Of a DNA stretch of 64,000 nucleotides, positions 1-22,684 are shown one piece after another. The notes beneath the pieces were generated by a model. That model had not been told where the DNA came from. It saw nothing but the letters and a program-made list of their open reading frames with translations, and searched no databases. How positions within the stretch are numbered: position 1 is the first letter of the stretch; every line of letters begins with the position of its first letter. The position numbers and the translations under genes were made by a program. This DNA comes from Patiria pectinifera (taxonomy: Eukaryota; Echinodermata; Asteroidea; Valvatida; Asterinidae), in NCBI GenBank assembly GCA_029964075.1, contig CM057147.1, positions 16,017,513 to 16,081,512 on the forward strand. The letters run 5' to 3'.

Positions 1-90
1 AATGTACGTGTAGCTGATTTATAATAGCGGAAAAAAATCTGGAAAGGCTACAGTTTATCCCTAAAGGCCGGAAACTAAGTGAAGAGAATT

Positions 91-233: not shown

Positions 234-323
234 CTGAATCGAGGAAGGTACACCCAACTGCCTTTACTTGACTTGGCTTGATGGAAGTCAACCATTTACC
301 TTCCAACATCCTTCAAAATCCAT

Positions 324-1847: not shown

Positions 1848-2275
1848 AACCTTAAAACTCCCTAGGCATTTTAGCTAGGACGCAACCTCAATCCTGCAAA
1901 ATCCTTTAATTGCCTCCATGGATGCAAATATTGCATACAGCCTCAATCCTGCAAAAAATCATGCATCCGTTATTTCTTGAATGTGGTCCTTTGATGAGGG
2001 GTGACCACTGCCTCAATCCTGCAATACCCTCCGGCAATGAGGCAGAGCCAGTGACATCCTGGAGCAGTGCGGAGAATTTTAAGTGTAATCTAGACCTACA
2101 TGTACAATGTATACATGCACGGCAGAGCATAAACAACACAAGGTCTGGCTTAAGATCTTGACACAGTGCATCCTCCAAAATCAGCCACACATTTTTGCCA
2201 TATATAGCCTCAATTCTGCAAAATCCTCCATTTTAAAAACAGCATTTTGGAGGATTTGGGAAGGTGAAGGTTAGA
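1848..2275 (+). mobile_element. element A copy 1 (MITE with iterated internal motif)
   Basis: Starts near ctccctaggcattttagc and ends near gggaaggtgaaggttag. It contains repeated variants of CCTCAATCCTGCAAAATCCTCC (about 1888, 1940, 2010, 2209), plus the family landmarks TTATTTCTTGAATGTGGTCC, CAGTGACATCCTGGAGCAGTG and TCAGCCACACATTTTTGCCA. The same order is seen in five other places in this window. Non-coding; probably a short non-autonomous DNA element. Confidence 0.8.
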
Positions 2276-2289
2276 TCACAACAATTTTG

Positions 2290-3292
2290 CCTGGACGTCC
2301 AGCAATCACTGTCAGTATGTTGAGGCAGTGCCAGTGACATCCTGGAGCAGGGCGGAGGATTTCAGTATAATCTAGGCCTAAATTTATGCACAGCTGAGCA
2401 TACACAACACAAGGTCTGGCCTAAGACCTTGACACAATTAATGCATCCACCATGTCCACCAAAATCAGCCACACATTTTAGTCTGGTTCCCCGACCTGAC
2501 AATTTCCCCCGACGTCTACACGTCTAAATTGTAGGTCAGGCAGCCTCCGTGGCTAAAAATAAGCATGACGACATTGACGGCCCTTTTTCAAAGCTCGACT
2601 TCGTTTCCGAATTCGCTTTATCACATAAAGCTTTTAATGTTCCGATAATTTTTTTAAAAATAAATCACTGCTTCATATACCATACAGTTATGATATACAG
2701 TTTAATACTTCTGTAAAAAAACATTGACTAATTTTAACCTGGAATCTTCAAAGTTGGACACCCAAACAGCACTGTTAGCAGGCGGAGCCGAATTGAGACC
2801 ACGCCGCGTTTTGGAAAATGCCGGTAACGGTCGTCAAATTCAAACTAGTGCATGACGCAGCAAAAAGTTCGCCCCTCGTATACGATCCGAGTGCAAAATT
2901 GTCGTTGAATCTCAAGTTTTTTAAATAAAAGCAATGGATATTAATTATCAACTAGTTTTTTAAAGTTTTTAATAAGCAATTAGCAGTTAATAAAACCTAT
3001 ATTATACTCGGAAATACTCGGACACTATCCGATTGTCGACGAAATGAATTCGCCAAACTTCGGACAGTTTCGGAAAAAGGAGGAATTCCTCCCGTTTTAG
3101 TCACGTGATGTAAATTGTAATACATTGTATTACCGGAGGCTACCTGACCTAAGATTCATCAGGAATAGTCAGAATCTTTTGGTCTGGGAACCAGACTACC
3201 ACACATTTGTGCCATGTACATGTACATGGTGCAATAACCTCAATCCTGCAAAATCCTCCTTTTTGCAATGAGGATTTTGGAAGGTTTTAACC
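2290..3292 (+). mobile_element. element A copy 2 (partial), split by a later insertion
   Basis: Family landmarks run from CAGCAATCACTGTCAGTATG to TCAGCCACACATTT at 2478. They resume at 3199 with ccacacatttgtgccatg and the final CCTCAATCCTGCAAAATCCTCC, ending near 3292. The 720 bp between are a separate element. The 5' half of the family is missing here. Confidence 0.8.
2479..3198. mobile_element. 720-bp terminal-inverted-repeat element inserted in element A
   Basis: The ends are TAGTCTGGTTCCCCGACC and, in inverse, TAGTCTGGTTCCCAGACC. Subterminal inverted pairs (GGTCAGGCAGCCTCCG against GGTCAGGTAGCCTCCG) reinforce the pairing. The flanks CCACACATTT (2469-2478 and 3199-3208) are a 10-bp direct duplication of a sequence found once in uninterrupted element A copies. 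No transposase frame is visible, so it is a non-autonomous DNA transposon. hAT would give 8 bp, so the superfamily is open. Confidence 0.8.
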
Positions 3293-4624
3293 CAGCATAT
3301 ACTTTTTGGGTGTATTCTCCAATGACCCCATTGTAGCATTGGGTGCTTGGGCGGTTTGGACACTACAGGGAGTAATGGGCAGGGCGGTTTGGGGCAGTAC
3401 AGTGACTAAGGGGTTAACATAATGAAAAGAATGAAATGTTGAATTTGCAAAACCAACAATGCAGGCACAGGCATAAGGCAGATAACAAAGTATAATTTAA
3501 AAAATGTATATTTAGAAAGTTTCTTATGAGGAGAATGGGTTGGATGGTTTATTTTTTGTTCGTTTGTTTGTTTGCTTTGCTTTGCTTAAGAGATACCCTT
3601 TGCACAATCCTTTTTGGGTTTGTTTTTTTTGGGGGGTGAGGAGTTTTGATTTCCTTATTTTGTCATCGATATAACCAATTTTATTTTTACTTTTAAATTA
3701 CGTTAAAAGTACATCTTCCGGTATCACTGTGCATTTTTTTTCAATTAAAGAAACAAAACTGCTCTAAATCTTAACGGTGCACAGCAACTACATGTACATG
3801 TACAAGTACCGGTACCCCATTGAAGTTGTAGCTCTTGAAAAAAATGTACGCACAAATTTTGAGGTCTCATAACTGGAGTCTGTTGTTAATACACGTTAAA
3901 AAAATGTGACCACGGGCACACTTTTTTAAAAGTACCTTCAATTATTGGGGGTTTTTTTTCTCGAATGATACCATTTTAGGCAGAAAATATGTAATTTCAC
4001 ATGGTGGTACCAGTCACGTCCTTTTAGTGCATAACGTCAAAGACCTTTTAGTGCAAAACATCAAAGACCTTTTAGTGCATGTACCGTTACATCTTATTCC
4101 CATTCTGGGGTCAAAGGTTATGCACACTTTGAGGGTTCGCTGATTGACAACAGCCCTATATATCAAAGGTTACATGTACCAGGGCAACGAGCCAATCATT
4201 ACCCTCTACTACATGTAGAGCAGATTTCAAGTGAATGGGACGGTTCAAATGGTGTCAAGTTCAGCCCTCTATAGTGGAAGTGACTTCATTTATGCCTTGA
4301 TCTTGAGGAAAGGGCGAGAAGTATTGGTAGTCTTGCCAGACCAAAATACTCTATGCTGACAATCTTGGCAGGATCCCACCCATTTTTGACGGAAGATAGC
4401 ACCGATAATCTGGGTGTAAAACATTTTTTTATTTACCCACAAAATATCTGATATTCTTTGTTATCAGTTTTGAAAATATTGAGTAAATAAATTCATAGAT
4501 TGCATTCAAGAATTTCACTACCAGGCGTGTTACCCAGTACCTGTATTAAATGTTCAATGTAGGCGTGCCTCTAAGTACGTTTATTAACTTGTATGCGGGG
4601 TGGGCTCTGCTGCATTATGTTCTA
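3293..4624. other. spacer with no gene found
   Basis: T-rich and A-rich spacer. A short phrase, cctttta gtgca, recurs three times around 4020-4085 as a small local direct repeat (cttttagtgcataacgtcaa type). A TACATGTACATGTACA palindrome run is at about 3787-3803. No exon-like frame was seen. Confidence 0.4.
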
Positions 4625-5132
4625 CAGGGTGAGTAAAAAAATAACGAAACCCAAATGTCGGGATTATTGTTTTACTGAAGTTCTGCATGTAGCACTTTCA
4701 AAATCTAGGACATGCAAGCCCAATTCATAAGCTTTCTTTTAGTACAAAAATCATTCAAATCACTAATGTACTTTTCAAGTTACAGAATTTTAAACACAAC
4801 CACCGTTTTAAAGTTCTGTCCATGGATCACAAAAAAAGTGTGCGTTCTTTCAGCAAAACGAAAACAATTCACACACATCCTTTTGTGATTTGTTTTCGTT
4901 TTGCTGAAAGAACACGGAACTTTTTTGTGATCCGTGGACAGAACCTTAAAACGGTGGTTGCGTTTAAAATTCTGCAACTTGAAAGGTACACGAGTGATTT
5001 GAATGATTCTTGTACTAAAAAAAAGCATATGAATTGGGCTTTCATATGTTAGATTTTGAAAGTGCTACATGCAGAACTTCACTAAAAACAATGGTCCAAA
5101 CATTTGGGCTTCGATTTTTTTTTACTCACCCC
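4625..5132. mobile_element. element B copy 1: long foldback palindrome
   Basis: The left end CAGGGTGAGTAAAAAAATAA is mirrored by TTTTTTTTACTCACCCCG at the right. Most of the roughly 240 bp arms are inverted copies of each other: GAAGTTCTGCATGTAGCACT pairs with AGTGCTACATGCAGAACTTC, and TTCTTTCAGCAAAACGAAAA pairs with its mirror across the centre near 4868. Nearly the whole element could fold into one hairpin. Long open frames on both strands here are mirror images of each other and not genes. Confidence 0.9.
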
Positions 5133-5544
5133 GTTTTGTCTCATCATCATCATCATTGGGCGGCCGCAGCCGAAATGGATGAAACCAAACTCTTCCAGAC
5201 TCTCTTGTCATGGCGTTTTGTCTAGTCAGAAGCCATAAACCTGTATGTTCCATGTAAGCCAGGGATTACACCCAATAACGACGTCGCAATGCAAGCAACA
5301 TTAGCAATGTTAGAAACCCGGGAACTACATGTACATGTATGTATGTGGTTTCTTTGAAAAAATGTGATATCAATTACATTTACATGTATGAAAGGATTTA
5401 TGTACCGACCGGTACAGGATGTTTTTCTCCGGATGTGTACTCTGTACCTGTTCCATTTTTTTCTTTTCCACTGCATTGCCTCATTTTAGCAAAACAAATA
5501 AACGTTGAATAATTTGAGCACTTTTTCCAGCTTGGTCATGCTTG

Positions 5545-5737
5545 TCTGACAGCGTTTGTTTATGGTATAAAACAAGGACACACACGTGCATCAGAATCGA
5601 GGACAGGAACCAAATCGAGGATGACCTCGATTAGAAAACCTGTACAAACCCAATGAGAGCTGTTGCGAAAAAGTTACAAACAAAGGAAAAGGGAAGAGGA
5701 ACAAAAGAAAATCCTCGATTTACACCATAAACAAATG
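5545..5737. mobile_element. small inverted-repeat element
   Basis: GTTTGTTTATGGTATAAA on the left is mirrored by TTTACACCATAAACAAAT on the right, about 190 bp apart, with AATCGAGGA motifs inside both arms. Non-coding. Only one copy seen, so the call rests on the inverted ends alone. Confidence 0.5.
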
Positions 5738-7965
5738 TGCAAGTACCGATGTGTGCCACTTTCTGAATCTCATGCTACCAGTACATGTAGGCCACGTATG
5801 ACTGCGCATTGTCGCCTGGTGTGTACTACATGTACATAATACACTTTCTTTTTTTTTATCCTAGATGGTTTAAATTCACCATAAATGCCTATTAAACACA
5901 CACAACTTTGTGGGAGGACACTGTGGCGCGTTTTTAGAAATAATGTACGCACAAATCAATGAGCGTGTTTACATTCACGCGACAAAGTCGTGCGACTTAT
6001 CGCGCGACTAAAAACATCGCATACATGTACCGGTATGTACGTATTTCACATGGAACCTATGCCTGAACTGATCGGTTGTAAAAGATGGACCCCCAAATCA
6101 CGCGGCATACCCTGTACTGACCAGTGGACACACTCGAGTCTGTGACATTGCTGCGGGGAAAAGTCATTGCGACAAAATCGCGCATGTGTACAAATAGGCC
6201 TTGAGGTCTTGGAAGATTTTGTTAGGATGATGGCATCAGGCAGAGCCCAGCCTCTCTCACTGTACATGGAAGTTGATGCTCCTTAAAAGATAAATTTTAA
6301 AAAAAGGTGCTAAATTTGTATTAGAGTGGAGTCCCCGAACTTGGCACATTTTGATATGTTCCTCAAGCCATACAGTGTCGCCATTTACTTAATACTGCTT
6401 GCTGGTGAACCTTTATGAGCAATATCAGTGTCATGAAATTTAATCCAGGAATTCGGCACGAACTTGGTTAAGTGCTTCCTAGCGTGGCACACTTGAACAA
6501 ATCTCGGAAATTCCCCAGTGAACATTTAAGAATTTTGTTAAAGTTGAAAATCTGATAAACCATTAATTGATATCTCCACTCATTATATACAATTAAACGT
6601 TTGTCAGAAAATCATTTTCTTAATTTTTGGGTACATTTTAATGGGTTCGCTACGCACTTAAAATCGGAAAATCATGCGTAAGTAAAATACCGTATCTCTC
6701 TTAACTTTGTAGCAGGGAGGTAAACTCATGGTTTATGAATAAGAATGTTTAGAGCTTTATGAAATTTCACTTATACTGTGAAATTTGAGGTAAAACCTTT
6801 GCTGTAGCTGGGCACTAGGAACAACAAATCACCGCATTAAGGGCCACGCCACATACGGGGGCATCAACAATACCGAGTCGAGGTTTGCGGATTGAGAGAA
6901 GTTACTGGCTTTTTAACTGACAAAGTTCATGTGCTCAAAGATGCATGTGAATTTTCAATTTGTGTGTTTTGTTTCAACGAAAAACAAAAACTAACTTCAT
7001 TCCAATTGTGGGCGTCTGCAACCATCTGAAATAGGAATTTCATTTTGCGCACAAATGAACTTGCCCTGCGCATAATATGAGCGCCGGTTTATTGTTTGGC
7101 AGCCAATAATTCAATTTTTGTGAAGAAATAATTCAATAACTAAATGTCAGTGGAATATTTTCATTGTATGTCTCATTCAAAAGTGAATAAGTTTTATATT
7201 TCGAGGAAAATAGAAATTGGAAAAAAAAAAAAAAAACCTTTTTGATGTGATAACTCGAAAATAGCACTGGGGAATATCTTTATAACCCAAATGAAGCGCC
7301 TTTTTATTGGGGGGCAAGGAACCTCCCTGAATCTTCCCAAATCAATGAAACATTTGTTGGAAACCAAATGCAAATTCTTTCAAGCAATTCCACCGGGCTT
7401 TCCCTCGACCTTATTCCAGCAAAATCTTTCAAAACCTCCTAGAATATAAAGGATCCTGGAGGATATGGTTTCATAATCATATGGTACATACATGTATGTG
7501 AAATTATGTAGTAGATGGCTAGCTACATGTAGCTGGTGTGGAAAACATCAATTTAAACCCAAAATTGTATACTTATTGGATAGATTATGGTAGGTTTTAT
7601 TGGAAAAGTAAGAACTACAGCTAGCCTTGCATGTATGTTCATGTACATGTAGGTGTATTTATTTTTATTTTAATTATTTCATATTCCGGGATATTACAAA
7701 CAGTGAATCATAGTCAAAACAATTACATACGTGTACATGTACAAATAACACTGAGAAATAAACATAACAGAAAACAACACCCAAAAAGCTCCCGCAGAAT
7801 TACCCAAAGGAAACAAGTTTCTGTCGAGGGGCTCTCCAAACTAATTGGGTAGAGCTTGATGAGAGGTGTAACTGTATAGGGCCTTCTTCCCCAACTTTCT
7901 GGTAAAACTTAGAAATTCTCTTCTGACTGTATTATCTTTATTACAGGATGCGGCTAAAAAAGAAA
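5738..7965. other. spacer, nothing identified
   Basis: AT-rich spacer. TACATGTACCGGTATGTACG at about 6024 is one of the window's compound palindromes. I saw no conserved coding segment, no tandem array and no clear inverted-repeat element. Confidence 0.4.
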
Positions 7966-8214
7966 AAGTAGTTCTGCTTCCACGATTACATGCCTTTCAA
8001 AAATAGGGTTTATGTAGGTCGAACATTTCTTTCCTTTTTTGCCAACTTTTTGTGTGTGTATGATCATATGGATGTGTCTGCATGTAGTCAAGGGTAAAAG
8101 GTAGTAATTGATGATTTTCGGGTTTTTCTCTCTCTCATTTTTCCCAAAAATAAATTAGTGAAGGGGCTGTCAACAAAAGGTAGGTAGGATAACCGGAAGC
8201 AGAACTATTATTTT
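7966..8214 (-). mobile_element. element G copy 1 (inverted-repeat MITE)
   Basis: The ends AGTAGTTCTGCTTCC and GGAAGCAGAACTATTA are inverted copies. The interior (read on the minus strand: tagttctgcttccggtta, attactaccttttaccct, ccatatgatca) matches the copy at 23682-23946. Non-coding. Confidence 0.75.
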
Positions 8215-8526
8215 TTTTGGCCAGATATGAGGATACAGGTACTGGTACTAGTCGGTACTTGTCACAATAACGTGACAATGGCCGCACGAGTGTTTACACA
8301 CACCACACAACACAAAGCCCAATAGCATGAGCTGGACTGCTGGGGTCAAGAGGCCCTCACCAAGGGGCATCTGAACTTGAACTACAAACATACGACTCAG
8401 TTTTCACTTACTTGCATGCCTGATTTATAAAAATGTGCTCATTGGGATTTTACAGACATGCAAACCAGGATATACGGCAGCACATGTAGGAACATGTACC
8501 ATGTAACAAACTGAAAAGGCACATAC

Positions 8527-8955
8527 TAACCCTAACTCCCTAGAATGTTTGCTAGGATGCAACCTCAATCCTGCAAATTCCTCCAACTGCCTCCATGTAA
8601 AATGTCCATACAGAGGCCTCAATCCTCCAAAATCATCTGTTATTTCTTGAATGTGGTCCTTGGAGGGGTGACCACTGCCTCGATCCTGTAAAATTCTGTG
8701 GCAATAACCATCAATATGTTGAGGCAGAGCCAGTGACATCCTGGAGCAGTACGGAGGATTTCAAACATAATATACCGGTAGGCCTAAATTTATGCGCGGC
8801 TGAGCATAAACAACACAAGGTCCGGGCTAAAGACTTTGACACAGTGCATCCTCCGAAATCAGCCACACATTTTTGCCATATATTTAGCCTAAATCCTGCA
8901 AAATCCTCCATTTTGCAAAGAGGATTTGGGAAGATTGGGGAAGGTTACAGGGTTG
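8527..8955 (+). mobile_element. element A copy 3
   Basis: Begins TAACCCTAACTCCCTAG and ends near GGGGAAGGTTACAGGGTT, with all the internal landmarks of the family. Five variants of the CTCAATCCTGCAAAATCCTCC motif are spaced 50-150 bp apart. One copy of a palindromic TACATGTACATGTA run follows directly. Confidence 0.8.
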
Positions 8956-10310
8956 AAGTACATGTACATGTACTTCAAGGCATTATCCTCTGTCTAGTCT
9001 CAATTCTCGATAACCTTACAAAACATTTAACCCAGACATATTTACATGTAGACATGTACCGGGTATTGGGAGACACCTTTCATTACCTTTTGTTTTATTT
9101 TTTAATACTTTGAAAAAATCTCTAAAACAAGTTGAATATTACACATGAGTTTCACAAAGTTGGAAAGAATATTCTACACTAAATGTACTGGATATGCTCA
9201 TGCCAATACCAATACCAATCAACAGTCAAGGAGCCCGAGAATGACGAAAATGAATCACCTTCTACATGTAGTTCTATTGCTTTAAAATACATCTGTCATT
9301 CATTTTATAACACACGATGCATGAACGTACGTACCGGGAAATTCATCTGACGAAAATAATTAAATACGTGGACAGACAAAAACAAACATCTGTGAAATGT
9401 TTTCATTGACGTCAGTTGCCTTCATTAAAATGAAAAAAAAAAATTCTGCGGAACAACAGGAGTCACAAACTTACCAAGTGACGTTAGCCAAGGAGTTGAT
9501 GATTGCATGTATGTACATATGGACGCGTGGGCTGCCCTTTTCAGAGTCTGCATACATGCATACACCTTGCGTTAGGCCTCTGCATGTGTGACAGCACGCA
9601 GCCCTATGAGGTATGTTCTCATCCTGGACACACACATGACATAATGCACGTTCACCTACAAATGTTCGTCCTTGTACAGGGAAGGACAGGGGTGATGTTG
9701 TCTTGCGGGCAGAATCATGTGGCAAGCATAACAAGGCAACCGGCTAGCAAAGTACGGGGGATGACACTCCATTTAACAAAACAAAACAAAATGTGCGGCT
9801 TGTGTGTGCTTAAACTGGGGTGGGTGCCCCAGTGCATCAGTACAAATCCTCTGCATAATCACCCTCATATAATGCCGAGCTGTGTTTGCTGGTTGGCAAC
9901 CTGACCGACCGAACGAACGCCCACACACATACTGGGCAAGCCTCAAGTTCACAGGGTAAAAAAAAAAAAAATCCTGTTATCAATGCACTGTGAAAATACA
10001 CAGTGACAGTCATGTACTTGCAGTGCACTTATAATGAAGGGGCAACCTTGAAATATATCTTCTTTCAGGAGTTCATATTTCATGAAGTTTTAAGGACTTA
10101 CATGTAAAAAAAATTAATTGTCGAACGTTTGGAAAACAAACTCAGTAGATATAATGTAATCACAATTACTGAGGCGAATATATACAAATGTATAATGCGT
10201 GTAAATTTATATGTACGCAGAGCATGCAAATGTAAAGTCTTTCGTGGCTCTGTTTACTATAAATAATAGAAGACTCCTCGTTAGGAGGGAACTCTGTGCT
10301 AACAGTAAGC
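8956..10310. other. spacer, nothing identified
   Basis: No exon with conserved product seen. A 133-residue open frame on the plus strand (9503-9904) is cysteine- and histidine-rich by composition only and overlaps other open frames on the opposite strand. Confidence 0.4.
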
Positions 10311-10881
10311 TTAAAGCTAGAGTCCATCATTTGCAGCTATCCAAAAAGTAACTGGCGTAATTAGTGTTGAAAAGCATACATGTACTTGGTTGAAAGATAG
10401 TAAGGGGACTAAACTCCCTGTGAAATTATTCTTTCTGGCAAGCTGTCATTTTTAAGAAATCAACGAAAGAAGGCCTTTCCAACGAACGGTGCTTCTTAAG
10501 AAGCACCGTTTTGGAAATTTCTGTTAGTACGTGTAGTTCGTTTTTTTTATTCAGCGAAGCGCTTGCAAGCGTTGACACGACTCACACGCACGCGGTTGCT
10601 AAAATTCGTCGGATCAGTGTGCGACATCGCGTATAGCTGCAACCAGCTCAGTGAGAATGTGTCTTGGACTCTGAATTCAGGGCCCAATTCAAAACATGAT
10701 TCAGCAACTTTTGATTTGAAATCAAGATCCTAGAATGTTGTTTCCTCAAAATATACAGCTGAAGCTGAGCTGAAACTTCATCAGGTTAGTTGTTCAGCAC
10801 CCTTCTTTAGATTTTTTGATCACTTTTGTTGCTTCAAACGAACAAAATGCACAAATTACAAATGATGGACTACACCTTTAA
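10311..10881 (+). mobile_element. element C copy 1 (TTAA-bounded MITE)
   Basis: The left end is TTAAAGCTAGAGTCCATCAT. The right end, in inverse, is TTAAAGGTGTAGTCCATCAT. Both ends therefore start with TTAAAG and share GTCCATCATTTG. The interior has TTCTTTCTGGCAAGCTGTCA, ATTTGAAATCAAGATCCTAG and ACAGCTGAAGCTGAGCTGAA, shared with three other copies. The TTAA borders suit a piggyBac- or Kolobok-type target site (family knowledge; no transposase here). Confidence 0.85.
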
Positions 10882-11104
10882 TGTGTATGTTGTGTCCCAG
10901 GTCTTAGGCACATGCATACAATACCGGTATGTACATGTATACAAGTATAACTTCATGTACATGTATGTGACCTACATGTACATAGCTGTCACCACTAAAT
11001 TAACTTAATAGTCGAAAATTGCCATAATTTTGCAGTACAGTGGGGCAAAGCCAAAATTTGAAACGGGTGGTCAATTTTTTTTGTTTTCAGGTAAACCTTA
11101 ATGT

Positions 11105-12035
11105 GTACATGCATGTTTCGACTTTAGCGGTAGCCAGCTACCGGTAGCTAAATGCTAGTCAAAACAGCGGCGGGCTAGTCAAACTATTCCTTCAGTAGCC
11201 CGGCTGGCGAGTCAAACATTATTGGGCTACGGCAAAGATGAAAGGACAGGAAGAAAGAAATCATTAAATTCAGAAAGCAAACCTGAATTTGTGTCTCATT
11301 TTATTAACTGTTTAGGGCTAAATTATTAGATCTGTTTATTAAAAACACTGACAAGATTGCCGCAGGATACCCGTTTTACAATTGTATTCGCATTGTTGCT
11401 TATAAGACGCTCAACAAAAGAAAGACATGCGGGCTAGTGAAAATGCCCGCGGGCTAGTTAAAGCTATAACAGTCCATCATTTGCAGCCATCCGAAAAGTA
11501 ACTGGCGTATTATTGTTGAAAAACATACTTGGTTGAAAGATAGTATATGTAAGTGGACTAAACTCCCTGTGAAATTAATCTTTCTGGCAAGCTATCATTT
11601 TGAAGTAATCAATGAAAGAAGGCCTTAAGACGCACCGTAGGAAAATTGAAATTAGTAGTTTGTTTTATTATTCGGCGCAGCGCGCGCAAGCATTGGCACG
11701 ACGCACAGGCGCGCGCGGTTGCTATACTTTGTCGGATCAGTGCGCGACATCGCGTATACACTGTAGCTGCAATTCAAAACAATTCAAAACATGATTCAGC
11801 AACTTTTGATTTGAAATTGAGATCCTAGAATGCTGTTTTTCTCGGAATATACAGCTGAAGCTGAGCTGAAACTTCATCAGGTTAGTTGTTCAGTATCCTG
11901 CATTAGATTTTGAACACTTTTGTTGCTTCAAACGAACAAAATGCACAAATTACAAATGATGGACTATATCTTTAAGAATCTGTTTCAGTAGCCCGTCTGG
12001 CTAGTGAAAAAAAAGTTAAGGTCGAACCCTGACAT
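11105..12035. mobile_element. older repeat rich in GGGCTAGT, host of element C copy 2
   Basis: Both flanks of element C copy 2 carry the same vocabulary: GGGCTAGTCAAA and CAGTAGCCCGGCTGGCGAG on the left, CAGTAGCCCGTCTGGCTAGTG on the right. The outer ends CATGTTTCGACTTTAGCGG and (inverse) CATGTCAGGGTTCGACCTTA are loosely inverted. I read this as an older element into which C2 inserted. Family unknown. Confidence 0.5.
11458..11975 (+). mobile_element. element C copy 2
   Basis: TTAAAGCTATAACAGTCCAT on the left and an inverse TTAAAGATATAGTCCATCAT on the right, with the full family interior but a shortened middle. It is about 580 bp downstream of copy 1 in the same orientation. Confidence 0.85.
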
Positions 12036-13451
12036 GTACATTTGTACACGTACTATGTACATGTAAGTCCTGAGCTACCTTTCTCTAATTTTTTGTTCCG
12101 TCAAACATCTTTGAAACCTACATTGTACATATGTACATGTATTTTATCCTGTCTATTATATTGTATTCATTCACTGTATACTGCAACACAACTGAAGGAT
12201 TGTTAAACGCCATTGATGATTTTCTCAAAAATCAGTTTTACAACTTGAAGTAAGTTGGTGATCTATTTGTCTGTTACTGAACTTACCCCTTAATACTCTA
12301 TACCATTGGAAAACTCTTGTTCTGCAGAATCCAGATACAAATAATCATCTCAATTCTTAAAAAGTCTGACTTTAACCTCATTTTGTGATGAAAGGGGCAA
12401 CATACAATTTCTGTGTTTACAGTCACACTGCCAACTGTAAGCACAAAATAGTGGTATGAGCACAACATTTTACCTAGTGATTGATTTTTTTTTTCATCGG
12501 GTTGTTGGGGTGGGGTTTTTGTTGTTTGTTGTTTGCTTTTCATTTGTTTGTTTAATAATAAATATAACCAACCTTGTTCTTAACTTTATGTAAACTTTAT
12601 GTATGCCATTCAGCTTGGAGAACCCCTAGACAGAAACAATGTTTCTTTTGGGCAATCCTTCGGGAGCTCAATGGTATTTTGTTTTTGTTTGTTTGTTTTT
12701 GTATCTAAAGCTTTCGTTTATGTGTTCATTGTAACTTTGGTCATTTGTGTATGTATGTATTTGTTGAAAATTCCCGAGAAAAATGTACATGTAAGTAGAG
12801 CAATGAAATTGAGACCAAAGGATCAGGATCCATGTACTTAAATTGTCCTCTTTCCCCCTTTTTAAGTCTAAACAGATACTTTTACTAAAACATTCCATCT
12901 AGACCCTTCAGAAAACCTTGAAAATCTCCTAATACAAATTGTGCATGCCAATCTGCCATGCAATTCACGCACATGCAATAAGTTAATTCACCGAAATTTT
13001 AGTGCCAATATCAGACAGTACACAATTCTGCATATGTACATTGAAAGGCGTTCTCAATAATATACTGCACAATCCCAAAGTGAACTGATGTATGTACATG
13101 TTTACGTGTACGTGCAGTATGCTGAATATTTTCCAATGTCGATCTGACAAAAAGCTTGTAATTTTTATCCCCACTGATAACAGTTCAGTTACGGATCAAA
13201 GCGCACTGAACTCCTATGATAGGTTCACGTTATCTTTATGCACATGTGCATCAAGTTGCCGACATGGGTATGCACACGTATTTCCACTGTTTGTGGTGAA
13301 TGAAAGGGCAAGGGTTCGATTTGGGGTCAAGGTTGGGCATGGAGCTAATTTTAGAAAATGACGCTCTATGAAAATAATTATGGCTCCTGATACGAGCTCT
13401 GTAACTCAAGTCCCAAAAAGGAATCTTCTATTTACATGTACTTATGATCCT
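12036..13451. other. spacer, nothing identified
   Basis: Contains T/G-rich low-complexity stretches (about 12485-12560 and 12675-12705) and TACATGTA palindromes. Open frames are short and compositionally biased; none is exon-like. Confidence 0.4.
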
Positions 13452-13869
13452 CAAGAGGCATTTTTGCTATAGGATACAACTTCAATCCTGCAAAATCCTC
13501 CAACTGCCTCCATGTAAAAATACAGCCTCAATTTCTGCAAAATCCTCTGTCATTTCTTGAAAGTTGAATGTGGTCCTTGGAGGGGTGACCACTGCCTCAA
13601 TCCTGCAAAATCCTCCAGCAATCACTGTCAATATGTTGAGGCACAGCCAGTGACATCCAGGCCTGGAGCAGTGTCCAGGATTTTAAGCATAAACTAGGCT
13701 TAAATTTATGCATGGCTGAGCATCAACAACACAAGGTCCGGCCCAAGACCTTGACACAGTGCATCCTGCAAAATCAGCCACACATTTTTTGCCATGTATA
13801 GCCTCAATCCTGCAAAATCCTCCATTTTGCAAAGAGGATTTTGCAGGATCTGGGAAGGTCAGGGTTAAT
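13452..13869 (+). mobile_element. element A copy 4
   Basis: Family landmarks in full order from GGCATTTTTGCTATAGGA to GGGAAGGTCAGGGTTAA. Internal CTCAATCCTGCAAAATCCTCC variants occur at about 13480, 13526, 13596 and 13801. An extra 'ccaggcctggagcag' duplication distinguishes this copy. Confidence 0.8.
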
Positions 13870-14053
13870 AATTGTAAAGGTACCGGTTACACCCTAATGA
13901 TGTAAGGGCACTAAAAAGGCTTTTCCACAAGTGCTCAGTTATGAGGAAACTTTCAAATGCCTGGTATTAACAGCACAGAGTTGACCGAAGATCCCTTCCG
14001 AATGTTATGTGCTTAACCCAGGTAATGAAGGTAAACATACGTACGGTACCATA

Positions 14054-14310
14054 GCCCTTTTCACACTAGACAAAACTTGGGGGTGGCCCGGGGGCGACGC
14101 AGGGGTGAAAATAAGCCACAGTTCACACTTCAAATTCTCACCCCCGCACCACCCCCAGCGACACCCCCATGCCACATCTGAGATTGCTCTTTTCCCGGGG
14201 CGAGTTTAACCCTGCTCGGGACCAGGGTTGAAAATCTTTGAGACACTTTCCCCCCGGGGCGAGAGCTGTAGTGTGAAATGAGCGGGGGTGAGCTCACTCT
14301 GGGGCGGGCA
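14054..14310. mobile_element. element E copy 1 (CCTTTTCACACTAGACAAA family)
   Basis: Begins CCCTTTTCACACTAGACAAA and runs through GC-rich CCCCGGG/ACCCTG sequence to a mirrored AGTGTGAA near 14275. A relative at 37926-38200 has the same outer words. GC content is far above the local background. Confidence 0.6.
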
Positions 14311-14984
14311 TCAGAGGGTTAAAATAGACTCCGAAGCTTGATATGTATAATTGCAACAATTCATCAGAAAAAAAACGACACATTGTGTACAATGTGCTCT
14401 TTATTTGTGGCTTTGCGACCGACACAAATCAAACCAACAGTTCGTAATATTGGAAAGTATGTTAAGTACAAATGTAAGAAAAGAGTAAAATTTACCTTAA
14501 TTTTTGACATGAAAACGCACACAGGGTTTTACTACTTTCGTTTCTTATTTGGATAAGTAATAGTGAAATATATATTCAGCCTCATTCCCATTTTCTCTGC
14601 ATCAGAGACCACAAACATCACGTGAAATTCATCGTAACGATGAATAAAAATACATCCTTATTGATTTTTTGATATGCTTTCCAGTGCCAGCACTACATAC
14701 ATGTTTTTGTAGGAAGTTATTGTTTCCACAGTGAGGATATTTTACTATCACTTTAAACGAAACAATGCAATAAAATAAAAATTTAAAAAATGGAAAATTT
14801 GTCAAATTGAAATTGCGAAACTAATATCTGGATGCTTTTAAAAATGTTCCATGCTACATTCGGTTGATTATAAGTTTGATGATGTCATGTTTCAGCACGC
14901 ACGACGCACACGTGTGAAAATAGGGCCAGGAGCCCAGGATTCCACATGCATTCATGTATTTTTTATGCAAGTCCACTTAAAGGT

Positions 14985-15472
14985 ACCGGTAGTATGTCAA
15001 TGTCACACTTTTGCTGTAATTTTCAGATATGGATGGATTTGCGGTTAGTATTTTATAGCAAATATTTTTACACTGACCTGTTTAAAGTTCTGTGTTCTTA
15101 AATACTGGAAAAACCAAGAAAAAATGCTGTTCTTGTAGTCTGGTTCCCTGACCCTACTTCAGACGAAACAGAGCAATTTATAGACACCGGGGAATTGTCC
15201 GGACAGGAACCAGACTAGCTGGCTTGCAAATTGAAAACCAAATGTACACTAACTAAATTTGGTAAATTGGGGGCAGTATTTAAAAAAAAGTCAGTTTTTT
15301 CAACGATGGTTGGTCGACCATCATTGAAAATTTTGCTTTTCTTGAAAATGACAGCACATCAGGTGCCAGGATTTCACATGATACTAGAGAATATTATTCA
15401 CTTACAGTCAAGTAAAGTATTTCATAATAATTTGGCAGTTTTGTGTTTTGATGTTTACAAATATTGTATTAC
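14985..15472 (+). mobile_element. element D copy 1, with two internal hairpins
   Basis: Shares its order of landmarks with 49575-50085 and, reversed, with 43325-43608. The landmarks are CTTTTGCTGTAATTTTCAG, CTGGAAAAACCAAGAAAAA, an 82-bp hairpin bounded by TAGTCTGGTTCCCTGACC, then GGTAAATTGGGGGCAGTA, a second hairpin around GATGGTTGGTCGACCATC, and GTAAAGTATTTCATAA. Non-coding. Its right end abuts element A copy 5 directly. Confidence 0.75.
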
Positions 15473-15474
15473 CT

Positions 15475-15822
15475 TTAACCCTAACCTTCCCAAATCCTCC
15501 AAAATAAAGTTGCAAAATGAAGGGTTTTGCAGGATTGAAGCTACCGTACGTGTATATGGCAAAAATGTGTGGGTGATTTCGGAGGCTGCACTGTGTCAAG
15601 GCCTTATGATGTCACTGGCTCTGCCTCAACATATTGGCAGTGATTGCCAGAGGATTTTGCAGGATTGAGGCAGTGGTCATCCCTCCAAAGACCACATTCA
15701 AGAAATAACGAAGGATTTTGGAGGATTGAGGCTGTGTGCCATTTTTACAAGGAGGCAGTTGGAGGATTTTGCAGGATTGAGGTTATATCCTAGCAAAAAT
15801 GCCTAGGGAGTATTAGGGCTAA
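15475..15822 (-). mobile_element. element A copy 5 (inverted orientation)
   Basis: The best-preserved ends of the family: TTAACCCTAACCTTCCCAAA at one side and, in inverse, TTAGCCCTAATACTCCCTAG at the other. This shows the family ends share TTARCCCTAA. Internal motifs appear as GGAGGATTTTGCAGGATTGAG. Confidence 0.85.
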
Positions 15823-16330
15823 ACCAAAAACTCAAGTTTTGATCTTTGGGCAGAAAGAAGTAATTTCAAGTTGCATTTAAATTTATTGTACACACCAGTA
15901 CTGATTGTGACTTGTGTCTGATATCAAAGTCACGTAAAAATTGATGTGCAATACACGTTACCAGTTTGTGTGCGTTGAGTTCAAGGAAAGTCTCCCACTT
16001 GTAGACAGTTTACTGTACTTGTACTGTACATTATTTATGTACAGGTAGTCAAATATACCGATGTACCGTACGTGTTAAAATGTGTCTGACCTGAACATGA
16101 GTTGGATAATAACTGGAATTGGAAAGGAGGTTAAGCACGTTATTCCTTTACAAGACTCCAACAAGCTCACAAGTTTTACCCAAGGGAATAACAATGATTT
16201 TGGCAGATAGACTCTAACAAGCTCCATGCTTTAACAAACACAGCAGCATTCAAATGAGCCGACAAGAAAATTGATCGCATTTTTTCTTCTTGAGAAGTTC
16301 CAAATTGGACAAGAAGCTCGCAATGGCCAG
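15823..16330. other. spacer, nothing identified
   Basis: No feature beyond TACCGTACGTG-type palindromes near 16060 could be supported. Confidence 0.4.
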
Positions 16331-16630
16331 TAGACCTTATTCATGAGCCATTTTTGATCATGTTCCCTGACTGTATTTGTTTTAATTGTAACCTGTTGAA
16401 TGGGATGGTGCCAGACTATTTAAGCCTCAATTTCAAGTTTTCTTTTAATGTGGTTTAAAACATTAGGATATATGTCTAATCACAAATTTGAAATTATTCA
16501 TCAGAGCCGACTGTTATTGATTTGTAATTAACTTTATTTCATTGCTTTCATTTCTATTCGCGAGTTCCGAACTTGAAGATTTTACCTCGCTTTCACTTTA
16601 ACATGGCTGCCTTTCACTGAATAAAGCCTG
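16331..16630 (+). mobile_element. element F copy 1 (CTTATTCACGAG family), diverged
   Basis: Begins GACCTTATTCATGAGCCATT, then TTGATCATGTTCCCTGAC, AACCTGTTGAATGGGATGGT and GCCAGACTATTTA. It ends GGCTGCCTTTCACTGAATAA. The same order occurs at 44617-44922 and reversed at 45381-45685. More diverged than those two. Confidence 0.7.
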
Positions 16631-17859
16631 TTGATGGCCTCCTGAATGTTATACCATAATGACCCTCAATAACAGGATTTCGAAAATGTGAACTCAACAT
16701 CTGAACATCATTGTAAAAACCCCCCAATAAAGTTCATGTACAATTAAGCAAACAGAATGACATCAAAATGTCATTCAGACTTGATTGAGCAAAAAAACAA
16801 ACTCACCATAGAACGTACATGTACCGGTACAGTATACAATGTTCACCAGCAGAATCCAAGCATGGAAAGTATCAATTTACTGCCCGATTTGAGATTTTTG
16901 TCTAGAACTTACGATCTCCTAATTCCACGGATGGAAAAGCCGCCCGGATAATGAAAGCCAATCTGCAGGCAGTGACTGGCCTAATTCTCCTACTGAATAA
17001 TTACATGCACAGGTACCGTAGCATACCGGGTAGCTGCATAGGAAGTGTGTAAGGTGACTCCCGACCTCATTGCCAGGATGTGCAGCACGTGGAATTCAAG
17101 TTAACACGGATTTTCCTCCTTGTCAAAAGTGTGCATTGATAACACTTTCAGTTTTGAGTCAGACGCTCGATGTGACATGTACAAACAATTCTGCCCATTT
17201 GGCCAACAATATCCTGCATGTTAAAGAGCATGAAACTGGAGGAGGAGGGGCCATCGAGTGACGAAAAATTTTGAAACTCGTTACATGCATAGAGCAACTC
17301 ATCATGAACATACCCAAGAAATTTCATGACTATAGGTCAAAGGGTTTTGGAATTATGGCTAATTAATTATTGATATTAACGAATGGTAATTCTGCTCTGT
17401 GTTTCAGTAATTAATAAAAAAAAATTTCTACTTCTTTAACGCTGGTCCACAAAATTTGTTCCACAACAACCCGTGGTCCAATTTTTTTGTTTTAAAGTCA
17501 AAACATCAAGGCTAAAAGGTACGACAGTGTCAGGGATTTAAGAGTTTTTTTTTTTTTTAAGGCTATCATGCAGTGCTGGAGAACTTGGGGAGGAAAAAAG
17601 GGGAGGATGGGGAAGGGGGAAAATAAATTACTACACTTAACAATTGCCGTTTTTAACCCTCAAGGCGCATAGCACCCTCGGCGCCCCTCAGGTGAACAAT
17701 TGTTTTGTTGTATCGTGCCAATAACTCAAAAAGATAAATGGTTGTAACTTACTGTGTGAGAAATAAATTAAATCACTGTGATGTGAACTTTGATAACTGA
17801 AGGTTTTGATGTCCTGCCGGACATGAGACTGAGCGTTTGAAGTACAGGCGTCATATCTA
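16631..17859. other. spacer, nothing identified
   Basis: An open frame at 17070-17261 is short and has no recognisable domain. A-rich and G-rich low-complexity occurs near 17540-17620. Confidence 0.4.
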
Positions 17860-18215
17860 TGCATTTTGGAAATTTTGTCCCAGTTCGTTTTTAATTTGGC
17901 GTCGTGCGTGCATAAGCATTGACACAACGCACACGGGCACGCAGTTGCAATAATTTGTCGGTTCAGCACGTGACATCACGTAGAGCTCTGCAATTGGCTG
18001 AATGCGAACGTGTCCCGGACGCTGATATCATGCGCAATTCAAAACACGCCTCGGCAACTTTTGAATTGAAATCGAGATCCTAGAATATTGTTTTCTCGGA
18101 ATATACAGCATTCACAGAGCTAATACTTCATCAGATTAGTTGTTACGCACCCTTGTTTACATTTTGAGCACTTTTGTTGCTTCAAACGGAAAAAATGCAC
18201 AAATGACAAATTCTG
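17860..18215 (+). mobile_element. element C copy 3, truncated
   Basis: Only the right two thirds of the family is present: GGAAATTTTGTCCCAGTTCG, CAACTTTTGAATTGAAATCG, GATCCTAGAATATTGTTTTC and CACTTTTGTTGCTTCAAACG. The terminal TTAA borders are not recognisable. It is the most diverged of the four copies. Confidence 0.65.
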
Positions 18216-18969
18216 CCTTACATGTAAATGTTATAAATGTATTACAATTATGTACTCATTGTATAACAATTGCATACATTGAAAATCATTAATTTCACCT
18301 CAGCAAGTCTTCAAAATTTCCATTTCATACTTCAATACTCCGCCATATAATTCCAGAGTGACAATTATGATGACATTTCGACAAAAGCAATTGCAATGTG
18401 TGACATACATGTACTGTACCGCTACTGTGCAAGAACTCCTTTATGACCCGGGCCTCATCTTGTCTTGTGGACAGACAACCTGGCAAGGCAGTACTGCTCA
18501 CGCCCGGGAAAGCTGTCAAGTGAGCTCCGTGTGACGCAAATACACATGAAGAAAAAAAAAGACTATTGGAAAACATGGCAGTTGAATCTCCATTTCTAAT
18601 TATATACCCGTACACATACATGTGCTGTACATGTAAAGTAAATAGTCATTCAATGATCAAAACAAGCCGATTTCAAATATTTGCAATGCGCAGTGCGAAA
18701 TTGTCTCTAGAGTTTCTATTTTCCACACACACCCAGTGTTTTTCATAAGTTCAAATGTTAAAGGTTAGAATGTGAACAAACAAAATTTGCTCTTACATTT
18801 TGTACCCTACAATACCGGTACGTACATTGTACATGTATACAGTCATCTCTCAGCGAATTTCAATGTCTAACAGCAGATCCATGCAGCTGAACAGACAATG
18901 ATGCTTAGCAAAATACATGTACATGTATGCACTTAGCAAACAAATTAAGCTTAGAACTACTTGTCAGGT

Positions 18970-19460
18970 TAACGAGGCCAAACCGACCTGAGACAAATAT
19001 TTTATAATCCGAACTGAAACCGAAATGGACTACTTAAAACTGACCCAACCCCACCCGACATCAATTTGAAGAAAACCGACCCGAACCGACCCGAAACCGA
19101 AGCGACCTGAAAAAACCTGAATATCTGACTTTGGCAAATGTGTCCGTTTTTTGCTCCTGAACTGACCCGCTTCTCGTAAAAAAAAAGTGTCAGCTTTCAG
19201 TAACTGAATCATGCCGTGCGGCACTCACAACGTGACCTACTGGTGGGCCAACATGTAGACCGATCGAGACAGACCGCAAACCATTTTTATTCGCACCGCA
19301 CACAGTGAACTCTGCACTAAATAGTGCACCATGTGAATTTCCATTCTGTTTCAGTTCATTTTGGATTATTTCGGTTCATTTCGGGTTTTTCCAAAATGGC
19401 TTAACTGACCCGACTTGACTAAAATGATGGACAATCCGACCCGACCCGACCCAATCCAAC
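18970..19460. repeat. degenerate ACCGACCCGA-rich repeat with mirrored halves
   Basis: The left half is studded with AACCGACCTGA, CCGACCCGAACCGACCCGAA and similar. The right half has the mirrored words TTTCGGTTCATTTCGGGTT and then GACCCGACCCGACCCAATCC. The arrangement suggests a decayed foldback or low-complexity ended element; no family assigned. Confidence 0.45.
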
Positions 19461-19479
19461 ACTGCTAACGAAAGAATTC

Positions 19480-19735
19480 CACACTTACGCTAACCATTCT
19501 ACACTTACGCTCACCATTCTGTGCTAACAGCGCTAGCAGACAAATTATGCGCTAACCCAATAAGCACAGAATCCTTAGTTACGGCATGAACGCATGCGCA
19601 GAAGCCAAAGTTCCTTGCTAACCAATGAAATATGCTTACCGTAAGCACGGAACGGTCCGCTACAGTAAGCAAGGACTTTCGCTTACGGTAAGCAGAACTA
19701 TGAAATTGTGCCCCAGACTGTTTCGCAATATACCG
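19480..19735. mobile_element. repeat rich in GCTTACCGTAAGC palindromes
   Basis: Multiple small inverted words (GCTTACCGTAAGC, CTTACGGTAAGC, CACTTACGCTAACC) over about 250 bp, ending TTTCATAGTTCTGCTTA in inverse. It looks like the end of an interspersed element. No second copy in the window. Confidence 0.35.
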
Positions 19736-20279
19736 TTTCAAGGATAGCACCATCTTTATGATCATGTGGTTATCTATGGCGACCATTTTATAGAAAACAG
19801 TGTCTCATCATGCTCAAGATGCAATGGCATGATATTTTCAGTGAAATGCCCCAAAGATTACACTTGATCAAAAAGATGGCGGTGTCCTTGAAACTGTCTA
19901 TTCTGACGCGAAAGTGACCACAGCTGGAAAGTGGAAATTGTATGAAATCTTCCAAACTACGAGCGTCACAACATCACATGTGGTGTCAAATTAAAGGGGA
20001 CAACAAGATCTTTCATTTGAGTGGTGTGCTGATGAGGTGGAATGTACCGGTAATTAAGTGTGATTTTGGGCCAAAAAAACTTGGTGTTTTTTTTGCTAAA
20101 ATCATGGATTTTTGGTAGATATTTTGGCACCTTATTTTAACATGCAAAATGTGACTGTTATTGTGAGTTTTTGTGTTTAAGGCAGAGAGAAAGATTCATA
20201 ATATAAGAAAAGAGTTTCACTATGTTGCAGTTCATCACACTCAGATTTTATGCCGTGCTGTAGAAACCATGAAGTGGAA

Positions 20280-20695
20280 ATAACGTGAGTGACCTAACGT
20301 GAGTGATTGACGGTACCTCCCTGTATAAATCTAATGTCCCTTGCATCTAAAATACACACTGATTTGATTCAAAAGGCTTTTTTATATCTAGCAATAGGTT
20401 GAATGAAAGGTAAAATAATGTTACTTCTGTGTTGCAGACTACAGTTTGAGGAGACTGTAACAACAAAATTGCAAGACAATTTTTTCATGTCCTTTTTTGT
20501 AACGTGAGTGACGACCAACAATACACATGTTTTCAAGGAGTGAATGAATGGATTGAATTTTTATCTCCATGTTTGAGCACCCCTTACCCCAAGGTTGTTG
20601 TATGGCTGGTTGGATTCAGCTTGATCAAATACTTTTGAAGCAGTGAGAGGTCAAAGTAGCCTCATGGCTTATAAATGTAACGTGAGTGACGGTGG
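20280..20695. repeat. dispersed TAACGTGAGTGAC motif, four copies
   Basis: The 12-13 nt word (C/T)AACGTGAGTGA(C/T) occurs at about 20281, 20293, 20501 and 20679 in otherwise unrelated sequence. No TIRs or coding sequence nearby. ACGTGA resembles half of a CRE/E-box site, but no gene is close. Confidence 0.5.
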
Positions 20696-20699
20696 AATT

Positions 20700-22079
20700 G
20701 CCCCTAGATACATTTAGCTCCAAACTACATCTACACAGGTGTACAAATGTAATGCCAGAAAGCTGTAATTAAAACCACCAAGCACTCGACCCTACTAATT
20801 CAACAAGGGCCCTGCTCCTAGTCAAGCCGGACATTTTTAGAACATCGCATCTCGACCAGCAAGGTAGGCGAGCCAGCTGAAGGAACATTTAGTTGGAGGG
20901 AAGAATACTCCACAATTAACCAACTCTGACCTAGGGAATACTTTAATCATTCCGAGACTCTATGGCACGCAGGCCCCTACCCACTCAATCTGAGCTTGGA
21001 GACAGCAACTGAAGTACCCCACACAACTCCTCATGTTTATTCCAGAATATTTTAAAGGTACATAGTTCTTTTTGTTTTCACTCCCCCCCCCCCCTCCCAA
21101 GGTGCCTAAAGATCATACAATTTAACCCTAACCCCCTATGGTGTGTGGAAAATCATAAATTGGCGATTAAGGACTGTTATGGTTAACGGCAGTTGTTTTG
21201 TATATTAATGAAGCCAGGGTGAATACATGTAAGATTGTAAATTGTTATGGATATATGCTGAAAATGAAAAGGTCAGTTTCAGATAATGTATTACACGGAG
21301 ATCAAATCAGAAGCAAAAGTTGTTTTTGTTTGGGTGATGAATTTGACATTCCACTTTCATTATGACTACATGTAGTACCTACGTTAGTCGTGAGGGACTG
21401 CCATTTGCATCTCATGTTTGACTTGAATAATTGGCACAATGCCTGCAAGTTTTTAATATTTTTACCAAGAAAAACTGTCATTTCATTGGACCAAAGGTAG
21501 CGCCAACTTTGTAACAGTAAACTTTTAACAACTTCTGTAAATTATTGCACCAATTTATTCACACAACAAAATAAAATGTCACAGCATTAATATTAGCAAA
21601 TTTTGAGTTTGTTTATCATGCATTGTGCATCTACAATATACATGTATGTACATCCTTCAAAAGAACAGCCTTGTCTGGCTATATTTAATGCATGAGCTTC
21701 TCAAATCCGCCTCTTAAGAAACATGTATTCCGTATTTATGATTGATGCTGGACTTACCATTAAATTGTTCTTGGATTTCAATCTTCACAAGACAATCTGC
21801 ATGTGTATGATTATAATTTTGAACAAGCTTATCTGTACATTCAAGTACACTTTTAAAGTACTAATATACACATGGAATAATTTGTTGAGCACAAAATGTT
21901 ACTTTTTTTTTCTTTTTTAGAAGTACAGTACAAACGGATACAAGCCAAGTTATTAATTAATTTCTTTTTTAATCCAAGTTCATTTCTATCCATTGGAATA
22001 GTTAGTGGAAAAGATTTCACTACCAAAAGAACAAAAATATGTAATTTGAAAGGCATGTCAACTGAAACTTGCCGTAAGT
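20700..22079. other. spacer, nothing identified
   Basis: Contains a 14-nt C run at about 21084. 20720-21040 has a more balanced composition than its surroundings but no open frame with a recognised product. Confidence 0.4.
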
Positions 22080-22496
22080 TGGAGGCATTTTGGCTGGGAT
22101 GCAACCTCAATCCTGCAAAATCCTCCATCTGCCTCAATGTAAAAATTGCATACCGCCTCAACCCTGCAAAATCCTCCGTTATTTCTTGAATGTGGTCCTT
22201 GGAGGGGTGACCACTGCCTCAATCCTGCAAAATCCTCCAGCAATCACTGTCAATATGTTGAGGCAAGCCAGTGACATGTTGGAGCAGTGCAGAAAATTTC
22301 AAGTATAATCTAGACCTACAGGTAAATATATGCACGGCTGAGCATAAAGCTAATTAAACAAATTTAAGGTACGGCCCAAGATCTTGACACAGTGCATCCT
22401 CCAAAATCAGCCACACATCTTTGCCATATAGCCTCATTTCTGCATATATAGCCTCATTTCTGCAAATCCTCCATTTTGAAAGAAAAGGATTTCGGA
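22080..22496 (+). mobile_element. element A copy 6
   Basis: From GGAGGCATTTTGGCTGGGAT through the standard landmarks, including TTATTTCTTGAATGTGGTCC and CAGTGCATCCTCCAAAATCA, to GAAAAGGATTTCGGAG. The phrase ATATAGCCTCATTTCTGCA is locally duplicated near 22430-22460. Confidence 0.8.
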
Positions 22497-22684
22497 GAAC
22501 TTTAAGACGGTGGTTGTGTTTAAAATTCCGTGACTTGAAAAGAACATGAGTGATTTGAATGATTCTTGGACCAAAAGAAAGCTTATGAATTGGGCTTTCA
22601 TATCCTAGATTTTGAAAGTGCTACATGCAGAACTTCACTAAAACAATGGTCCCGACATTTGGGTGTTTTTTTTTTACTCACCCT
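22497..22684 (+). mobile_element. element B copy 2, right half only
   Basis: CTTTAAGACGGTGGTTGTGT through AGTGCTACATGCAGAACTTC to TTTTTTACTCACCCTGG matches the right arm of the foldback at 4625-5132. The left arm is missing, replaced by element A copy 6. Confidence 0.75.

Follow-up and report, generated by a model that had tools for sequence, protein, structure and literature searches.

An iterated subterminal word in a Patiria pectinifera MITE and its gene-bearing piggyBac relatives

An earlier note on a stretch of the Patiria pectinifera genome (assembly GCA_029964075.1, contig CM057147.1, positions 16,017,513 to 16,081,512 of the forward strand; the whole 64,000 nt are called the window here) described a miniature inverted-repeat transposable element (MITE), hereafter MITE-A, that is built around several internal copies of one 21-nt motif, CTCAATCCTGCAAAATCCTCC. 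Judged by its ends, its motif array and its relatives, MITE-A is very probably a non-autonomous element of the piggyBac superfamily that derives from an ancestor resembling two gene-bearing elements of the same genome, L067 and L074, and the iterated word is most likely its subterminal transposase-binding site. The likeness to transposase-binding subterminal repeats that the earlier note had drawn thus gains support from piggyBac elements with the same tip and the same array, and from a motif that outlives the linkers between lineages.

Ends, array and gene-bearing relatives

The genome searched comprised 613.5 Mb in 1020 contigs, in which CTCAATCCTGCAAAATCCTCC occurs exactly 3606 times (1791 + 1815) and the reversed word not once. 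A similarity search with the copy at 8530 of the window gave 4969 first-look candidates, of which the best 40 were scored, and a consensus was built from 30 copies; this is a biased sample, since the 30 copies, at 29 loci outside the window, are the top matches to that one copy. The consensus is 416 bp long including both TTAA sequences, TTAA-CCCTAACTCCCTAGGCATTTTTGC ... GGATTTGGGAAGGTTAGGG-TTAA, and describes a non-autonomous transposon of about 410 bp with the scheme TTAA-CCCTAACTCCC...GGTTAGGG-TTAA, too short for an 800-aa transposase. The 18-nt core of the motif, AATCCTGCAAAATCCTCC, starts at 43, 94, 155 and 354 on the plus strand and at 381 on the minus strand, with a degenerate copy at 313, the starts lying 27 to 158 bp apart. 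The left end therefore has three direct copies, and the right end one good and one degenerate direct copy followed by an inverted copy beside the tip, in keeping with the inverse occurrence of the word claimed earlier. At up to 3 mismatches, three cores were found in 2 of the 30 copies, four in 9, five in 18 and six in 1, and none of 600 mononucleotide-shuffled elements held a core even at up to 4 mismatches. The linkers between the motif copies are homologous across the 30 copies, as the earlier note had stated, and neither the number nor the spacing of the motifs is random.

MITE-A has the features of its class, being short, present in high copy number and bounded by terminal inverted repeats (TIRs), with an exact inverted match at the tips that is short (TTAACCCTAAC). 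Both exact ends with TTAA, TTAACCCTAACTCCC-N360..390-GGTTAGGGTTAA, were found at 387 places in the genome, a count that includes copies amplified on contig C1, and at none in the reversed control; the left end alone was found at 2235 places at up to 3 mismatches. In the first 100 of the 387 places the left ends distinguish at least three subfamilies, namely the type seen in the window, one with TGGGCATTTTTGCGATGATG that is concentrated on C1, and a homogeneous one with TAGGCCTTTTTGCTAGGATGTAGCC, of which 80 bases per copy were seen. Among the matches listed, copies lie on every one of the contigs C1-C21, while 21 of 58 sampled copies share one flank pair on C1 and are carried there by an amplified larger unit. 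Long head-to-tail arrays were not found among the dispersed copies listed, no genome-wide search for arrays having been made, and the earlier comparison with satellite-forming MITEs is not supported for the family. As a separate observation, an endophilin-like exon, HHRKKLQGRRLDFDYKKKKQAK (E 7e-7 to endophilin in PDB), lies beside a MITE-A copy in an amplified stretch at L001-L025 (C1:0.03-3.0 Mb); the best 40 of 1135 first-look candidates for the 301-bp flank-plus-exon were 98-100% identical, most of them on C1 and the others on C20 and small contigs.

The elements lie beside TTAA, the target-site duplication of the piggyBac superfamily. TTAA adjoins the left end in 23 of the 30 copies, the right end in 11 and both ends in 8, counts that are depressed by decayed or unparsed ends. 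One copy (L040) sits inside a repeat of which unfilled paralogues (L018 and others) are available, and these have a single TTAA at the junction and no gap there; 135 of 166 positions are identical to the flanks of L040 across the junction. This empty site, together with the TTAA flanks, fits cut-and-paste insertion into TTAA. The earlier note had given the ends as TTARCCCTAA; the TTAA represents the target-site duplication, and CCCTAAC opens the element itself. Both MITE-A ends, with CCCTAAC, conform to the rule for piggyBac ends stated in an excerpt of PMC2872659, by which CC(C/T)T adjoins TTAA.

A partner with coding capacity, which the earlier note had proposed to look for, was found with a PF13843 profile search of the genome. 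This gave 110 matches, and among 30 loci cut out for inspection there were two whole elements with MITE-A-like tips, the motif and intact frames: L067 (3463 bp, 619-4081; 811 aa) and L074 (3519 bp, 15-3533; 822 aa). Autonomous kin of MITE-A that share its ends and encode a DDE_Tnp_1_7 transposase thus exist in this genome. The two proteins match PF13843 at E 2e-66 and 3.5e-62. They also match PF13842, a zinc domain and C-terminal cysteine-rich domain (CRD), at 24.6 and 25 bits, just above the cut-off of 24; among the five proteins scanned, L066 also exceeded this cut-off, L069 fell below it and L070 gave no match. Among solved structures, phmmer gave as their best relatives piggyBat (9c0f, E 1.3e-29), with an alignment that extends through its C-terminal domain, and piggyBac (6x67, E 1.5e-25). 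At up to 4 mismatches L067 has nine cores, at 43, 93 and 139 on the left and at 3228, 3271, 3315, 3358, 3401 and, inverted, 3428 on the right, so that it matches MITE-A in its three left motif positions and in the inverted copy adjoining the right tip. Pieces of another element of the same sort were found at L088, and L092, a 553-bp element with no gene, has a MITE-A-type left tip and right linkers like those of L067. L086 was rejected as a relative, since its motif matches come from a MITE-A copy that merely neighbours an unrelated piggyBac frame.

Between L067 and L074 the ratio of nonsynonymous to synonymous divergence (dN/dS) is 0.10 at a dS of 1.7, which is near saturation, the synonymous sites being saturated over the DDE domain and the CRD. 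Identity is 92-94% at the ends and 94-99% in the first 120 codons, and about 61-73% over the remaining codons. This pattern marks the two elements as chimeras, in which recombination has joined different gene bodies to like ends, with the frame open in both.

Conservation of the motif and the words of sister families

Among the 30 MITE-A copies, identity to the consensus was 0.962 in the motif and 0.951 in the linkers (p = 0.45). Motif and linker decay alike, which indicates that selection does not act on the motif of a single inserted copy; no post-insertion selection on it was detected among these copies. Between lineages, MITE-A and the left end of L067 are identical at 51 of 54 motif positions as against 57 of 100 linker positions (p = 3e-7), and the corresponding figures for the right end are 47 of 54 and 19 of 43 (p = 9e-6). 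An excess of motif identity was likewise found between MITE-A and L092 (p = 0.001 and 0.0002) and between the right ends of L067 and L092 (p = 0.0006). The comparison of motif with linker suggested by the earlier note therefore reveals better conservation of the motif between lineages only, with no difference among inserted copies. Mobile lineages retain the motif; as it is kept where linkers are lost, it is best read as a putative transposase-binding subterminal repeat. The surroundings of the motif copies inside one element are 0.30-0.37 alike, where 0.26 is expected by chance. With flanks so little above chance, the copies do not stem from recent duplication of longer segments, and tandem duplication was rejected as their origin.

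Five piggyBac families of this genome (F1-F5) have the TTAACCCTAAC tip in common, each with a subterminal word of its own. In F1-F4 this word consists of two direct half-sites 10 bp apart: TCCTSC-N4-TCCTCC in F1, the word of MITE-A and L067; TGCATT-CTGT-TGCATT in F2 (L066); TACTA-N5-TACTA in F3 (L070, L073 and L076); and GCATCA-AACT-GCATCA in F4 (L069), of which one end was seen and which rests on two or three sites. In a tree of 18 transposases the seven rows with the TTAACCCTAAC tip group together with a support of 91/92, below the program's star, and in 96% of 200 bootstrap trees. L072 and L080 are the sisters of this group, and TTAACCCTAAC-like tips were not present in the stretches of these two that were examined.

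The 10-bp pitch was assessed in several ways. Identical 4-mers at a distance of 10 bp number 18, 23, 26 and 9 in F1-F4, compared with about 3, 3, 3 and 1 in random sequences, and these counts exceed all of 300 and all of 500 first-order random sequences. A strict scan for half-sites at periods 5 to 16, with sites counted in the left 300 bp, the right 300 bp and the middle, gave at period 10 counts of 3, 5 and 0 for F1 (TCCTCC twice, up to 1 mismatch), 4, 3 and 0 for F2 (TGCATT, up to 1 mismatch) and 6, 3 and 0 for F3 (TACTA, perfect). F1 had no other period in either end, with sites at periods 6, 9, 12 and 15 in the middle region; F2 otherwise had one site at period 7, and F3 a single site at each of periods 7 and 13. 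No two of the nine F3 sites share a spacer, and nine perfect sites of this kind cannot be one chance event multiplied. At one mismatch F3 also scores at period 7 (12 sites) and period 13 (8 sites), which we put down to the three-base repeat in its half-site, TACTAC. A scan at up to 3 mismatches proved too loose for F1 and F2: F1 then picked up sites in the middle as well as the further periods 7 and 13. Palindromic docking by inverted half-sites was rejected for F1-F4, its signal being weaker than the direct one: the best inverted classes were equalled by 13, 7, 1 and 23 of 500 random sequences, respectively, the direct signal by none of 500.

Three piggyBac elements outside the clade (L059, L071 and L082) had no clear 10-bp signal, with a weak direct excess in L082 (14 of 500). 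In L059 we found inverted repeats at distance 8, a score that none of 500 random sequences reached, and in L071 and L082 neither the direct nor the inverted signal was clear. Larger spacings are 41-53 bp within the clade, 43 in L059 and 44 in L071 (0 of 300), and L082 has its peak at 31 and a lesser one at 44 (1 of 300). An unusually long array of the F2 word, TCTGTTGCATTTAGCAGG, lies at C14:41866500-41866862, with eight exact copies spaced 42-47 bp apart except for a single 84-bp step.

We also compared the parts of the proteins that might read the word. According to excerpts of PMC7351741, PMC11707139 and PMC13405395, the C-terminal cysteine-rich domains of piggyBac and piggyBat bind internal or subterminal palindromes. 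L067 and L074, which have the same motif, are identical at 44 of 50 CRD positions and 273 of 370 DDE positions. In pairs whose motifs differ, the relation is reversed or evened out: 25/50 and 206/322 for L067-L068, 27/49 and 259/383 for L066-L069, 22/50 and 194/369 for L067-L069, 19/46 and 175/370 for L067-L070, and 26/49 and 196/370 for L067-L066 (CRD and DDE, respectively). In this comparison of few families, the pattern fits the cysteine-rich domain as the putative reader of the word.

Copies and neighbouring repeats in the window

Within the window CTCAATCCTGCAAAATCCTCC has 17 matches at up to 3 mismatches, all in 1887-22238, where none is expected and none was found in each of 100 shuffles; the iterated internal word reported earlier for several copies is thus real. 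The count of six copies is also real, except that 1850-3288 is one whole copy with a second, left-truncated copy fused to it that contains a nested insertion. Copy 1 (1850..2273, plus strand) is whole and decayed, with TTAA at 1846-1849 and motifs at 1887, 1942 (partial), 2012 and 2209. Copy 2 (2285..3288, plus strand), fused to it, lacks the left end, starts just past the third motif and has its last motif at 3239. A nested element at 2480..3198, to which no strand was assigned, splits copy 2 into the pieces 2302-2479 and 3235-3286 seen by blastn; its inverted ends TAGTCTGGTTCCCC form arms at 2479-2496 and 3181-3198, and it is not MITE-A sequence. Copy 3 (8530..8952, plus strand) is whole, with a degenerate duplication CTAA/TTGA and motifs at 8564, 8618 and 8889. 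Copy 4 (13451..13864, plus strand) has lost the left tip and retains the right TTAA at 13865-13868 and motifs at 13481, 13596 and 13803. Copy 5 (15479..15818, minus strand) is internally shortened with both ends kept (TTAA 15475-15478, CTAA 15819-15822) and has motifs at 15519, 15649, 15710 and 15761. In copy 6 (22087..22496, plus strand) both tips are decayed, and the motifs are at 22106, 22157 and 22218. Five exact matches to TTARCCCTAA were counted in the window: the two ends of copy 5 account for two of them, and the other three lie away from the copies, whose remaining ends are decayed.

In the 41 kb of the window past 22.5 kb, blastn with the consensus detected no copy. Six or seven copies in about 21 kb exceed the mean density of the genome, where 613.5 Mb gave 4969 first-look candidates. 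Other repeats were noted alongside. Elements with TAGTCTGGTTCC..GGAACCAGACTA ends lie at 2480-3198, the insertion in copy 2, and at about 15136-15220; the latter was seen by eye only, and a repeat search found no inverted pair of at least 18 nt there. A long inverted repeat at 4624-5134 has 204-nt arms that are 90% complementary, a 10-nt loop and outer 50-nt arms, and what appears by eye to be a single arm of it adjoins the right end of copy 6 (about 22500-22690). At 324-943 there are three head-to-tail units of about 217-223 bp with TTAACCCTAACCCTCCC or a close variant, which resembles the F4 piggyBac tip.

Proposed function, alternatives and known systems

We propose that an element like L067 or L074 lost its gene to give MITE-A. 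The transposase core would bind the tip, and the C-terminal cysteine-rich domains would bind the subterminal sites, each of them a direct pair of half-sites (TCCTSC-N4-TCCTCC) whose pitch of one helical turn would place both on one face of the DNA. The array of sites would collect enough transposase for the synapsis of two unlike ends, to be followed by cutting and pasting into TTAA.

Several points weigh against this account. We infer binding, synapsis and transposition, and likewise the identity of the binder, the number of protomers and the need for an array, from sequence features. The linkers of MITE-A and L067 are 44-57% alike and the two are not one family, so the mover of MITE-A may be another, perhaps lost, relative. 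No significant excess of motif identity was found between the left ends of L067 and L092 (p = 0.11), and F5 (L068, one end seen) shares the tip and lacks the 10-bp half-site signal. In F1 and F2 the sites are near-identical, and the 10-bp pitch taken by itself could there be one chance event multiplied. The divergence of the sampled copies from the consensus, a median of 6.5% over 30 copies that is low through the choice of sample, also counts on this side.

The motif might instead be bound by a host factor, such as a zinc-finger, HMG or silencing protein. Host factors assist some transposases, and what binds the motif here we can only infer; the word, however, is spelt differently by sister piggyBac families within this genome, with no change of layout or tip, as is expected if each family's own protein reads its word, and the strict period-10 sites of F1, F2 and F3 all fall in the outer 300 bp of the two ends, which makes a host factor improbable as the explanation. 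Somewhat less probable still is a reading of the internal copies as passive relics, left behind by tandem duplication or by the formation of a satellite, that play no part in transposition. The equal decay of motif and linker after insertion and the joint amplification of 21 of 58 sampled copies on C1 would suit such relics, but the flanks of the motif copies are little more alike than chance, the motif is conserved and the linker lost between lineages, the same layout recurs with other words in other families, and the copies among the matches listed are spread over C1-C21. Kolobok and Sola3 are likewise TTAA-inserting superfamilies, and the duplication alone does not separate piggyBac from them; literature on Kolobok with TTAA exists. 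An element of one of these superfamilies whose ends resemble piggyBac by chance is nevertheless scarcely credible, as the same tips and motif array occur with PF13843 transposases (recovered by a PF13843 search, with none aimed at Kolobok or Sola).

Iterated subterminal sites are already known from piggyBac elements, and the following comparisons draw on excerpts of the papers cited. The piggyBat element of Myotis lucifugus resembles L067 in its PF13843-type core, its C-terminal zinc domain, which aligns to that of L067, its TTAA and its unlike ends (PMC11707139, PMC13405395). Its left end has three motif copies at bp 11-16, 55-60 and 99-104 (PMC11707139), a pitch of 44 bp that is close to the 41-53 bp spacings of the present clade. 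In piggyBat the C-terminal domains bind as a dimer to sites that are imperfect palindromes, and the right end has none (PMC11707139, PMC13405395), whereas here direct half-sites 10 bp apart occur in both ends, nine sites in L067, with a word for each family. The Trichoplusia ni piggyBac shares TTAA, asymmetric ends and a C-terminal cysteine-rich domain that reads internal repeats, but its minimal ends each contain a palindromic internal repeat of 19 bp, and its tip and motif are different (PMC7351741). Human and invertebrate piggyBac-like elements and MITEs (MER75, MER85 and Looper) have repeated candidate binding sites inside both ends, as here, except that these repeats are described as inverted or palindromic (PMC12324416) and ours are direct half-sites. 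The CMITE elements of Acropora corals are piggyBac-type MITEs with TTAA duplications and an inner region more conserved between families than the TIRs; they measure about 100 bp, of which 75 bp form an internal region of unknown origin, and their TIR varies while the inside is kept (PMC2872659). The elements described here do the opposite, keeping the tip and varying the inner word between families. In the portions of the literature covered, to which subscription papers, Repbase and the survey of Bouallegue et al. (cited in PMC8086355) do not belong, we found no description for piggyBac ends of direct half-sites 10 bp apart, of nine sites per element or of a re-worded site under a constant tip.

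We tentatively suggest, at slightly less than even confidence, that one piggyBac clade swapped a palindromic for a tandem site, that is, two direct half-sites one helical turn apart, read head-to-tail by C-terminal domains and repeated in steps of about 44 bp in both ends. The TTAACCCTAAC tip would have been frozen while the half-site word was re-spelt in each family as a private address, and L067 and L074 would reflect an exchange of gene bodies between elements of one address.

Reading as docking sites would account for the iterated words in these MITEs, and the pitch and orientation of the half-sites would offer a rule for spotting such sites in unannotated piggyBac elements. The solved-structure transposases matched here, piggyBat and piggyBac, read palindromes; if a related clade does read long arrays of direct half-sites, its C-terminal domains would need to pair in another way. 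Sister families with one tip and different docking words form a natural set for studying the evolution of end recognition, and the same set could show whether subterminal words stop families from moving each other's copies.

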